Below are positions 53,799 through 63,842 of a stretch of DNA of 64,000 nt, piece by piece. Origin of the DNA: Bacillota bacterium (GTDB lineage Bacteria > Sysuimicrobiota > Sysuimicrobiia > Sysuimicrobiales > Segetimicrobiaceae); the NCBI GenBank assembly GCA_021324295.1, contig JAJPJJ010000037.1, forward strand, positions 1 to 64,000, written 5' to 3'. Position numbers and translations under genes: made by a program. How positions within the stretch are numbered: the first letter of the stretch is position 1; every line of letters begins with the position of its first letter. The notes below the pieces were generated by a model. That model had not been told where the DNA came from. It saw only the letters and a list, made by a program, of their open reading frames with translations, and did no database searches.

Positions 53799-54130
53799 GG
53801 GGGCACTCGACCTACCCTTCCTGAGCGGGACGCACTGCGCACATGATCATGCTCGAGCGGTAACACTCGGGGCGGCGCCCATCGACACACCAGAAATTAT
53901 ACCACAGACGGGCCCCGGTGTAGCGCTGCTCCTCACGCGCTTCACGCGCGTCGGGCGTCCAACGGCACATCGAGCATCAGTTCGGAGCTCCTCCTGGGCC
54001 ATCGCATTGGTGCGGCGCCGCCTGCCCCACCCCGACGAATCGCGGGCGAACGGCGATGCGTTGGGGGTCCCGGGGAGGACGCGGAGCGCGGGCCCCCCGC
54101 GGCCCCTCGTCGACAGTGCGCGACGCGGCG
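53799..54130. promoter_or_regulatory. Promoter and leader region of the CNNM/CorC gene
   Basis: On the minus strand a perfect TATAAT lies at 53901-53896 in the only AT-rich stretch of the gap. The -35 position (about 17 nt upstream) holds only a weak match (CTACAC). Transcription would start near 53889, leaving a leader of about 90 nt. I looked for a magnesium-type riboswitch and saw none that I could support. The remaining sequence up to the dgkA stop shows nothing recognisable. Confidence 0.6.
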
Positions 54131-60264: not shown

Positions 60265-61176
60265 TCACGACGGCAGGAGCATCGTTCCAATGCCGCGCTC
60301 GGTGAACAGCTCGACGAGGAGCGCGTGCGGCACCGACCCGCTGATGATGTGCGCGCTGGGCACGCCGCCGCGCAGCGCCTCCAGGCACGCCTCGACCTTC
60401 GGGATCATACCCCGGCTGATGGAGCCGTCCCGGATGAGTGCCTCGGCGTCCGCGGCGCGCAGGTCCGAGATGAGACGGCGCTCGCCGTCGTAGTCCCGGT
60501 ACACGCCCTGCACGTCCGTCAGCAGGATGAACTTGCTCGCCCCGACCGCCACGGCCAGCGCGCCCGCGGCCGTATCGGCGTTCAGGTTGTAGCTCGCGCC
60601 GTCCTCGCCGATGCCGAGCGAGGCTACCACGGGAATGTACCCCTGCTCGCTGAGCCGGATCAGCAACTCGGGGTGGACCTCCTGGATTTCCCCTACCTGG
60701 CCGAGGTCCACGTCGCCTTGGCGCTTGCGCGCGACCAGGAGCCGGCCGTCCTTGCCGCTCAGCCCGACCGCCTGTCCGCCGTGCTGAATGATCATCGAGA
60801 CCAGCGCCTTGTTCGTCCGGCCCGCGAGGACCATCTCCACGACCTCCATCGTCTCCGCATCGGTCACCCTCAGCCCGTTCACGAACGTGGAGGCCCTGCC
60901 CAGCCGCTCCAGGACCCGCGTGATCTCCGGCCCGCCGCCGTGCACGAGCACCGGGTGGATCCCCGCTCCCTTGAGGAGCACGAGGTCCTGCGCGAGCGTG
61001 CCGCCGCCGTTCGCCTCGAGGACGCTGCCGCCAAACTTGACGACCACCGTCCTGCCCTTCCAGGCGTTGACGTAGCGGAGGCCCTGGGCGATCAGCGCGC
61101 CCTCCCCGGCAGCCCCCGTGGGAGCCCCGGCGTCCTCGGCCGCCGGCCGCGCAGCGCTAGGTGATCGTTCCGGCAT
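60265..61176 (-). CDS. argB: N-acetylglutamate kinase
   Basis: The protein has 303 residues. It phosphorylates N-acetylglutamate, the commonly feedback-regulated step of the cyclic pathway. Motifs are VVVKFGGSVLEANGG, HPVLVHGGGPEITRVLERLG, YNLNADTAAGALAVAVGASKFILLTDVQGVY and SRGMIPKVEACLEAL. A variable N-terminal segment of about 30 residues precedes LIAQGLRYVNAWKG, the region that in arginine-sensitive enzymes forms the regulatory helix. It overlaps argJ by 20 bp. Confidence 0.95.
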   Translation of the reverse strand: MPERSPSAARPAAEDAGAPTGAAGEGALIAQGLRYVNAWKGRTVVVKFGGSVLEANGGGTLAQDLVLLKGAGIHPVLVHGGGPEITRVLERLGRASTFVNGLRVTDAETMEVVEMVLAGRTNKALVSMIIQHGGQAVGLSGKDGRLLVARKRQGDVDLGQVGEIQEVHPELLIRLSEQGYIPVVASLGIGEDGASYNLNADTAAGALAVAVGASKFILLTDVQGVYRDYDGERRLISDLRAADAEALIRDGSISRGMIPKVEACLEALRGGVPSAHIISGSVPHALLVELFTERGIGTMLLPS

Positions 61177-62371
61177 TTTCCTTGATGTATCCTTCCGTCA
61201 GATCGCAGGTCCACACCGTGGCCTCGCCGCGCCCCAGGCCCAGGTCCACGGTCACCTGCACGTCGTCGCCGGCCAAGTGCCGCGCGGCGGCCTCCAGGCT
61301 CTCGGGATCACCGGCCGGACCTCCCCTCTCGGCCACCAGGACGGGCCCGATCCGGATCGACGCCCGATCGGTCTGCACCTCGGCCCCGGAGTATCCCGCC
61401 GCGCACATGATCCGCCCCCAGATGGGGAGCCCCCCGTGGATCGAAGTCTTGACGAGCTGCGAGGAGGCGATCGCCAGCGCGGCACGGTGCGCGTCTTCCT
61501 CGCTCTGCGCGCCGCGGACCGTGACCTCGATCAGCTTCGTCGCCCCCTCGCCGTCGCGGGCAACCATCTTGGCCAGCGTCACCGCGACGGTCACGAGCGC
61601 CTCCTGAAACGCATCCAGCGGCTCGCCCGGTCCCGAGATCTCGGGGACCCCCGCCTCGCCGTTCGCCAGGAGCAGGATCGTGTCGTTCGTGCTGCGGTCC
61701 CCATCGACCGTGATGCGGTTGAAGGACAGATCCGCGGCCCGGCGCAGCGCGGCCTGCAGCACCGGGGGTGCCACCGCAGCATCGGTGGTGAGAACGCTGA
61801 GGGTCGTCGCCATCTGCGGGTGGATCATCGCTGCTCCCTTCGTCATCCCCCCCACGGTCACGACCTGACCTCCGATCGACACCTGCACCGCCGCGGCCTT
61901 GGGAACGGTGTCCGTCGTCATGATCGCCTCGGCCGCCGACGCGCCGTCCGGGCCGAGGAGCTTGACCGCTTCCCGAACGCCGCGGCGGACCGCGTCCATC
62001 GGCAGGGGCCGGCCGATGACACCGGTGCTGCAGACGTAGACCAACTCCTCTGCGATCTCGAGGCTCTGGGCCGTGAGCTGGGCCATCTCCCGCGCGTCCC
62101 GCATCCCCTGCTCCCCGGTGCAGGCATTCGCGTTACCGCTATTGAGCACGACCGCCTGGCCCCGCCCGGAGCGGATCCTCTCGATGTCGAGCAGCACGGG
62201 CGCCGCCTTGACCTTGTTCGTCGTGAACACGCCCGCGGCGGCGGCCGGCGCGCGGGAGAAGACGAGCGCGAGGTCCTTCTTCTGCGGCTTGATGCCGCAA
62301 TGCACGCCCGACGCGAGAAACCCCTGCGCCGAGGTAACGCCGCCCTGGATCAGCCTGGACACGCGCGCCAT
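61157..62371 (-). CDS. argJ: Bifunctional ornithine acetyltransferase/N-acetylglutamate synthase
   Basis: A 404-residue self-cleaving acetyltransferase that recycles the acetyl group between acetylornithine and glutamate. The autoproteolysis site is in KGAAMIHPQMATTL, between Ala and Thr, where Thr becomes the nucleophile. The start has QGGVTSAQGFLASGVHCGIK. A strong ribosome binding site, AAAGGAGG, precedes ATG 62371. Upstream lies a 427-bp gap with 79-bp tandem repeats that separates it from argC. Confidence 0.95.
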   Translation of the reverse strand: MARVSRLIQGGVTSAQGFLASGVHCGIKPQKKDLALVFSRAPAAAAGVFTTNKVKAAPVLLDIERIRSGRGQAVVLNSGNANACTGEQGMRDAREMAQLTAQSLEIAEELVYVCSTGVIGRPLPMDAVRRGVREAVKLLGPDGASAAEAIMTTDTVPKAAAVQVSIGGQVVTVGGMTKGAAMIHPQMATTLSVLTTDAAVAPPVLQAALRRAADLSFNRITVDGDRSTNDTILLLANGEAGVPEISGPGEPLDAFQEALVTVAVTLAKMVARDGEGATKLIEVTVRGAQSEEDAHRAALAIASSQLVKTSIHGGLPIWGRIMCAAGYSGAEVQTDRASIRIGPVLVAERGGPAGDPESLEAAARHLAGDDVQVTVDLGLGRGEATVWTCDLTEGYIKENAGTIT

Positions 62372-62798
62372 CGTCTCGCTGCCTCCTTTAGCTCATTCAA
62401 AGGCCCGGGCCCCCATCGGCCGCAGCATAACGCTTCACGTCCCCTGCCGTTTCCCCACGTGCGGGCCCCGGGGGTCCAAAGGCCCGGGCCCCCATCGGCC
62501 GCAGCATAACGCTTCACGTCCCCTGCCGTTTCCCCACGTGCGGGCCCCGGGGGTCCAAAGGCCCGGGCCCCCATCGCACGGAGCGCGATCCTTCACGTCC
62601 ACTGCCGTCAGTCCACGTCGCGAGACCGGAGAGGGGCCCGGGCCCCCATCGGCCGCGGCATCCGCCGGACAAGGCGTTTCGCTTCCGCCGCCGGTCGCCG
62701 ACGTCGCGATCCCATCGCCGCCCTTCCACGTTGCGCCCCTCCCACGCACAGCGCCGGCCCGGAGGACCGGGTCGGCGGCCGGCCCGGCGGCGGTGTGC
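62372..62798. other. Long intra-operon gap between argC and argJ
   Basis: These 427 bases carry no supported gene. Bases 62402-62656 hold the 79-bp repeat array; 62657-62798 show nothing recognisable. Other gaps in the operon are at most about 100 bp, so this one is exceptional. A structured RNA, an internal promoter or an expanded repeat are possible; the strong ribosome binding site of argJ starts just after the array. Confidence 0.7.
62402..62656. repeat. 79-bp tandem repeat array inside the arginine operon
   Basis: Two copies, 62402-62480 and 62481-62559, are identical over all 79 bases. A third, diverged copy of about 75 bases (62560-62634) keeps GGCCCGGGCCCCCATCG and a CTTCACGTCC-ACTGCCGT core. 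A fourth copy begins at 62635 (GGCCCGGGCCCCCATCGGCC) and then diverges. Each unit contains the palindromes GGCCCGGGCC and, in the exact copies, CACGTG. The period is not a multiple of three and no frame is favoured, so it is not coding. It lies between the argC stop and the argJ start, transcribed as part of the operon. Confidence 0.88.
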
Positions 62799-63842
62799 CT
62801 AGGGATACAGGCCGGGGACGCGGAGCCCCGTCTCCTCGGGGAATCCGCACATGACGTTGAGGTTCTGGACCGCCTGCCCGGCCGCCCCCTTCCCGAGGTT
62901 GTCGAGCGCGGCGATCGCCACGGCCCACTGCGCGCGCGGATCGATGCGCACGGCCACGTCGCAGAAGTTGCTGCCCATCGTCGCCTTGGTCTGCGGCAGC
63001 GTCTCCCCGAGGAGGGCGCGCACGAACGGCTCACGGGCGTACGCGTCCCGGTACAGCGCCGCCGCCGCCCCGGGGTCGAGTGGACGCACGAGCGGGGCGT
63101 ACGCGGTCACGAGGATGCCGCGGGCCATCGGGACGAGGTGCGGCACGAATGTCACGCGCGTCTCGCCGCCCCCCGCCGCCGCCAGCTCCTGCTCGATCTC
63201 CGCTGTGTGGGCGTGTCGTGGGACGCTGTACGCCCGCACGTCGTCGCTCGCCTCGGCGAACGGGTGCCCGCCGCCGGCGCCGCCGCGGCCGGCGCCCGAG
63301 ATGCCGGACTTGGCGTCCACGATGATATGCTGGCCGCAGACCCCCGCGCGCAGCAACGGGACGAGCGCGAGGAGGGCTGCGGCCGGGTAGCACCCCGGGT
63401 CGGCGACGAGGCGGGCCGTGCGGATGCGGTCCCGGTACAGCTCCGTGAGGCCGTACACCGCTTCGGCGAGGTAGCGCGGGGCGATGTGCGTAAAATCATA
63501 CCACGCCGGGTACAGCGCCGGGTCCCGCAGCCGGAAGTCCGCGCCCACGTCGATTACGCGGACGCCGCGCTCGAGGAGGTCGGGGACGAGCGCCATCGAC
63601 TTCCCGCTCGGGAGCGAGACGATGGCGAGGTCGGAGTCGCGGCCGATCGCCGCAGCGTCCGCAGCCTCGGTCTCGAGATCCACGAAGCCGCGCAGGTTGG
63701 GATAGAGATCCGCGAGGCGCTGCCCCTGGCGTGTCTCGGCGGTGACGTGGACGAGCCGGACGTGCGGGTGGCCGGCCAGAAGCCGGATCGCCTCCGCCCC
63801 TCCGTACCCCGATGCCCCGATGACGCTGACCCGGATCGCCAC
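62799..63842 (-). CDS. argC: N-acetyl-gamma-glutamyl-phosphate reductase
   Basis: The protein has 347 residues. It reduces N-acetylglutamyl phosphate with NADPH. The dinucleotide motif is VIGASGYGGAEAIRLL (residues 7-22), and the catalytic Cys151 is in VADPGCYPAA. SGISGAGRGGAGGGHPFAEASDDVRAY is family-typical, as is the His of PHLVPMARGI. GTG 63842 is preceded by GAGGG. It is the first gene of the operon and lies about 20 nt after the predicted transcription start. Confidence 0.96.
   Translation of the reverse strand: MAIRVSVIGASGYGGAEAIRLLAGHPHVRLVHVTAETRQGQRLADLYPNLRGFVDLETEAADAAAIGRDSDLAIVSLPSGKSMALVPDLLERGVRVIDVGADFRLRDPALYPAWYDFTHIAPRYLAEAVYGLTELYRDRIRTARLVADPGCYPAAALLALVPLLRAGVCGQHIIVDAKSGISGAGRGGAGGGHPFAEASDDVRAYSVPRHAHTAEIEQELAAAGGGETRVTFVPHLVPMARGILVTAYAPLVRPLDPGAAAALYRDAYAREPFVRALLGETLPQTKATMGSNFCDVAVRIDPRAQWAVAIAALDNLGKGAAGQAVQNLNVMCGFPEETGLRVPGLYP

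Follow-up and report, generated by a model that had tools for sequence, protein, structure and literature searches.

The argC-argJ tandem array of a Sysuimicrobiota genome is one member of a dispersed repeat family, probably a REP/MIRU-like mosaic

The window analyzed here is a stretch of 64,000 nucleotides from contig JAJPJJ010000037.1 (assembly GCA_021324295.1, Sysuimicrobiota). In its arginine operon, argJ (start at 62371) and argC (end at 62799) are separated by a gap of 427 bp. This gap stands out because the neighboring junctions of the operon are small: argJ and argB overlap, argB and argD are 97 nt apart, and argD and argG are 12 nt apart. Four head-to-tail units occupy the gap, and TRF reported them as the top-scoring array within the window (period 79, 2.7 copies, score 359). 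Copies 1 and 2 are identical, copy 3 shares 71% identity with them, and copy 4 retains the GGCCCGGGCCCCCATCGGCCG start. The sense strand of unit 1 is the minus strand, and its GGGGGCCCGGGCCTTT end adjoins the argJ leader. The 79-bp tandem repeats described in the first-pass annotation are thus present. That annotation placed them at 62402-62656; the array continues to about 62710, and copy 4, of which only the first 22 nt had been caught, is a whole unit. A CACGTG site had been assigned to each unit; it exists in copies 1 and 2 only, and copy 3 reads CACGTCG. The features are listed in Table 1.

Table 1. Features of the argC-argJ locus and copies of the E0 element (coordinates without a locus name are window positions)
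Feature	Location	Strand	Basis
argJ, downstream gene	61157-62371	-	gene call and homologue search
Short leader from array to argJ start codon, Shine-Dalgarno AAAGGAGG	62372-62397	-	sequence
Repeat unit 1, gene-proximal, 79 bp	~62399-62477	-	R1, 65.1 bits
Invariant palindromic core GGCCCGGGCCCCC of unit 1	62402-62414		13-mer count in genome
Repeat unit 2, same sequence as unit 1	~62478-62556	-	sequence comparison and R1 profile
Repeat unit 3, full-length, 71% identity to unit 1	~62557-62634	-	R1, 65.8 bits
Repeat unit 4, gene-distal, decayed but whole, 8-nt insertion inside	62635-62710	-	R1, 32.7 bits
Core GGCCCGGGCCCCC of the other units	62481-62493, 62560-62572, 62635-62647		same 13-mer
Remainder of gap	62711-62798	-	read from sequence
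argC, upstream gene	62799-63842	-	gene call; tblastn in relatives
E0, ~90 bp, CTAG-type ends	L015:3665-3755, L038:2850-2925, L072:2244-2335, L086:1673-1768
E0-similar copies, other genera of the family	L135, L152, L137, L153, L138
Likely E0 copy, another family	L136

The remainder of the enlarged gap is filled by a GC-rich inverted repeat directly 3' of the argC stop codon (GCACA..GCCGGGCCGG / CCGGGCCGGC..TGTGC). In profile searches, this segment gave no significant match to the unit or to the E0 element described below.

When the array was used as a BLAST query against its own genome, 46 matches were obtained (E = 1.7e-130 for the array itself and 1.1e-69 for the best other place), far more than chance would give, so neither the objection that the unit has no homologue nor that of a chimera applies. 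A profile grown from these places detected 135 units in 67 arrays of the retrieved loci. With R1, a sequence-only covariance model built from 55 units, at least 146 unit matches at E <= 0.01 were found among the matches listed for this genome. The 13-mer GGCCCGGGCCCCC occurs in 97 copies, against 4 for its reversed control. Throughout the genome the unit is 78-79 bp long, and arrays of one, two, three, four and five units number 32, 16, 8, 8 and 3, respectively. Contig ends truncate seven arrays; arrays therefore break the assembly and explain several of its contig breaks. Since near-identical units also lie where separate contigs break off, the copy numbers are minimum values. Such units were seen at the ends of L020/L018, L024/L011 and L027/L032, which suggests that these are neighboring contigs broken at arrays. 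The distal flanks of L029 and L076 have about 180 bp in common at 78% identity and may be paralogous genes.

The genes downstream of the arrays are diverse (purS, sufB/D-type, hisIE, argJ, apgM, SDRs and ferredoxins among them). A common regulon was rejected, because the 20 downstream genes analyzed with Pfam are functionally unrelated. Thus, the argC-argJ array is one member of a dispersed family that is not confined to arginine genes, nor is it a control element specific to a ligand or to arginine. An attenuator, as had been suggested for this place, is not supported, since the downstream genes are unrelated and relatives lack the array. The variable-number repeat suggested alongside it is the reading that survives: arrays hold 1-5 units, appear to grow by in-phase tandem duplication, and are dispersed over the genome.

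Plain arrays are those without E0 arms. Between co-directional genes, 26 of them are in the sense orientation and three in antisense (p = 1.5e-5), the sense strand being the one on which the GGGGGCCCGGGCCTTT end comes before the downstream gene. The invariant end GGGGGCCCGGGCC is usually found 15-30 nt 5' of the next start codon. Genes in the retrieved loci were called by a codon model trained on the window, so that starts are approximate and single gaps could be wrong by tens of bases. Over all arrays, this distance was found for 22 of the 45 start-facing ends and, with respect to the stop codon, for 1 of the 18 stop-facing ends. In six arrays, the upstream gene ends within the distal unit, with its stop codon 22-32 nt from the edge of that unit (27-32 nt in five of the six). 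The starting phase is common to all plain arrays (AAAGGCCCGGGCC on their plus side). Unit identity is 0.80 within arrays (0.87 without the distal unit) and 0.69 between arrays. The identity of neighboring units is 0.92 for the first, gene-proximal pair, 0.85 in the middle and 0.72 for the last, distal pair. Because similarity falls from proximal to distal, we infer that arrays grow by tandem duplication in phase at or close to their proximal end, while older copies decay distally. Stronger selection on the proximal copies would give a similar gradient. The strict orientation of the plain arrays could reflect function rather than insertion preference.

In multi-unit arrays, a 14-bp palindromic block is conserved at 97-98%, whereas the other positions of the unit reach 72-75%. 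For the 30 most diverged units the values are 94% and 68%, and something therefore constrains the block, either in place or during spread. The 92% found for the block in single units is biased upwards, because detection leans on the block. Its conservation could serve the spread of the unit or could indicate a binding site. The hairpin pattern CCCCGGGCC..TCCCGGGG by itself proved too restrictive and was found at 2 places.

For the unit, the RNAalifold consensus had 5 pairs, an energy of -6.6 kcal/mol and a covariation term of -0.11, and the mean folding z over 30 arrays was -0.75 for the sense and -0.91 for the antisense strand. Rfam gave no relevant match, relaxed thresholds included. One pair with strong mutual information (34-50) was considered and rejected, because its neighbors form no helix; the remaining high-ranking pairs result from unit subtypes or from shifts in the alignment. 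The covariance analysis of the copies thus provided no conserved fold with covariation, and the unrecognised structured RNA proposed for the unit is not borne out. The accompanying hint of selection on structure holds in part, for the 14-bp block and for the compensatory changes in the E0 hairpins, whereas no fold was obtained for the unit. GTCTAAC/GTTAGAC occurs at some junctions, but it is not conserved, and an integron attC site was rejected.

A two-hairpin element of about 90 bp, which we call E0, encloses about 15 arrays; the flanks shared by these arrays are its two halves. Its layout is CTAGCCCACCCCACGAAT.CGC...GCGAATTCGTGGGG-GCCCCGGGCCTTCC...GG...CCGGGACATGCTCCTAG, and unit-less copies also exist in the same genome. 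A structured model (R3) built from four E0 copies matched 32 places in this genome and, more weakly, 16 of the 39 relatives. The best of the relatives' matches (G007, G011, G003 and G034) share this layout but have swapped bases in the stems, for example CCCCACGAATTC/GAATTCGTGGGG versus CCCCAAGAATTC/GAATTCTTGGGG. Among 56 aligned matches, changes on both sides were found in 20 of the 24 pairs, which none of 500 shuffles reached, and the paired fraction fell to 41-55% in slid controls; this alignment leans towards structure because it was fitted to the model and contains a few opposite-strand duplicates. Unit-less copies of E0 occur in other genera and apparently in other families of the order, with compensatory changes in each of the two hairpins; some of the weak matches from other families may be hairpins that arose by chance. 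E0 often begins exactly at the TAG stop codon of an adjacent gene, on either side, and supplies that stop. E0-nested arrays have no orientation bias (5:7). At the argC-argJ locus, no E0 arms were found. Elsewhere in the window, positions 54019-54088 (CCCCACCCCGACGAATCGC...GCGATGCGTTGGGGGTCCCGGGG; R3, E = 0.0036) are a possible decayed copy.

The invariant end of the unit, TGGGGGCCCGGGCCTT, resembles the E0 center, TGGGGGCCCCGGGCCTT. Together with the nesting, this resemblance points to an origin of the unit within E0, followed by spread on its own; the nesting is observed, and the descent is drawn from 16-17 GC-rich bases.

As described, Sysuimicrobiota (CSP1-3) contains a single class with a single order (PMC11604079), and our sample of the phylum comprised 43 genomes of one order and seven families. 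No array was found by R1 in the 11 other genomes of the family or in 31 others of the order. The only match outside the genome itself was weak and single (G005, E = 2e-4) and formed no tandem array. In ten relatives of the same family, the argC-argJ gap is 19-91 nt (19-44 nt in nine) versus about 430 nt here, and a Shine-Dalgarno-like sequence is kept at argJ in relatives without the array. The gap had been called exceptional on first inspection, and both its size and this comparison agree. With the comparison of empty sites made at this one locus and the genus represented by one genome, the argC-argJ array is best read as a recent, lineage-specific insertion into a conserved tight operon. In the wider genome contigs, the unit pattern matched two Nocardioides stretches only; these had no profile support and were taken as chance. 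Viral contigs gave no match to the unit pattern or to the E0 pattern. The unit pattern recovered only 23 of the roughly 135 units of the genome itself, so that a diverged relative could be missed.

REP and REPIN sequences are palindromes of 20-40 bp with a terminal GTAG or CGTC tag, and the RAYT (Y1_Tnp) gene is flanked by such repeats. E0 is partly like GTAG REPs and BIMEs in its two hairpins, TAG-tagged ends and covarying stems, and in the TAG stop of the neighboring gene; GTAG REPs often supply this codon (PMC3733652). The E0/unit family as a whole is, like a BIME, a mosaic of hairpins and other modules. However, the two E0 hairpins are unlike in sequence rather than inverted copies, the tag is mostly CTAG, and most genomes with E0-like matches have no RAYT-type gene. 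Furthermore, the 78-bp module is much longer than a REP, forms head-to-tail arrays and lacks the REP build.

MIRU sites are overlapping stop and start codons, whereas the array sites here are not. The MIRU minisatellites of Mycobacterium tuberculosis occupy 41 loci as tandem repeats of 46-101 bp (PMC3914561); most lie between genes and are believed to be transcribed as part of polycistronic operons (PMC3635867). The units described here, of 78-79 bp, are similarly intercistronic at about 67 loci, tandem or single in 1-5 copies. Plain arrays have a uniform orientation (26 sense, 3 antisense), and six arrays carry the stop codon of the upstream gene at a near-fixed place inside the repeat. Unlike MIRUs, some of the arrays lie within a hairpin element, and the likeness that we claim is one of architecture only.

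ERIC/RU sequences of enterobacteria are non-autonomous, MITE-like intergenic elements of about 100-170 bp that can supply or remove stop codons (PMC2759123). The present family shares with them the small, non-autonomous, intergenic character but differs in sequence and in phylum. ERIC/RU sequences are not known to form tandem arrays at operon junctions. The regular period and degenerate distal repeat are reminiscent of CRISPR; a CRISPR array was rejected, because there are no unique spacers, entire 78-bp units align over their full length, and the loci are dispersed and number in the dozens.

Taken as a whole, the explanation that we consider probable is that the argC-argJ array is a copy of a lineage-specific, non-autonomous interspersed family with a REP/MIRU-like mosaic build. 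Its ancestral part would be E0, the TAG-tagged two-hairpin element that is wider in the order and often lies 3' of stop codons. Within E0, the 78-79-bp module, whose conserved end GGGGGCCCGGGCC is like the E0 middle, would have arisen in this lineage. The module would then have dispersed without the outer arms of E0 into gaps between co-directional genes, mostly in one orientation, at sites just upstream of the next ribosome-binding site (RBS), where insertions between the stop codon and the RBS may be tolerated. Tandem duplication in phase would expand the arrays and, judging from the similarity gradients, leave the youngest copies nearest the downstream gene. The argC-argJ array is presumably transcribed as spacer RNA within the operon. 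Its main effect would be passive, a longer spacer that separates translation of argC from that of argJ, and the effect on argJ is probably limited to this spacer.

As for a mobiliser, the genome has one Y1_Tnp transposase gene (L047), with no unit in the surrounding 3.3 kb, and no such gene was found in five of the six relatives with E0-like matches. Since the sole Y1_Tnp gene is unlinked to the units and most relatives with E0-like matches have none, RAYT-driven spread is not supported. The L047 gene is followed by a TnpB-like reading frame and probably belongs to an IS200/IS605-type element rather than a RAYT.

Within this explanation, the placement could also result from selection only: insertion would occur anywhere, and only copies between the stop codon and the RBS in a harmless orientation would survive. 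Operon gaps are short (19-44 nt in nine of the ten relatives), so surviving insertions must end close to a start codon, and the E0-nested copies are without orientation bias. However, nothing known explains why the antisense orientation would be harmful, and no U-tract terminator was seen in the reverse complement. We regard this version as possible but doubtful. An assembly or binning artefact is hardly credible: the assembly is fragmented into 129 contigs and seven arrays are cut by contig ends, but about 67 arrays have differing unit variants and differing flanks, and the genes flanking the argC-argJ array are syntenic with those of relatives.

The remaining alternatives give the arrays a role in expression. 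They could be functional cis elements, in which the GGCCCGGGCC palindrome of the unit binds a protein or a translation or RNA-processing factor that acts immediately upstream of the RBS and the copy number tunes the downstream gene. The palindromic block (94-98% conserved, 68-75% elsewhere) and the fixed orientation of plain arrays 15-30 nt from start codons would agree with this. However, conservation of the block is also expected for a sequence needed in spread, the downstream genes share no function, the units are absent from other genera of the family, and many copies are decayed single units; such a role seems unlikely. Quite unlikely, too, is a lineage-wide operon-tuning system made of the plain arrays, in which the module would have escaped from a hairpin element sited at stop codons and been recruited upstream of the RBS, where its core would be bound and the number of units would set or uncouple downstream translation. 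A structured leader RNA, an attenuator or tandem riboswitch that controls the operon, is very improbable. Many arrays are in a 5' leader position, GC-rich stems can be drawn, and the RNAalifold consensus contains a GCCCC/GGGGC hairpin in which C/U wobble changes occur. Against it stand the mere 5 consensus pairs with -0.11 kcal of covariation, the folding z values of -0.75 (sense) and -0.91 (antisense), the lack of an Rfam match even at relaxed thresholds, and the unrelated downstream genes.

The repeats are thus probably a REP/MIRU-like mosaic transcribed in operons. The results suggest how a hairpin element sited at stop codons may yield a shorter module that forms tandem arrays and takes up another kind of site, ahead of start codons and in one orientation. 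They also caution that an 'exceptional' gap in an operon, even one with conserved repeats, may have no regulatory role, and orientation-dependent tolerance of intercistronic insertions becomes testable.
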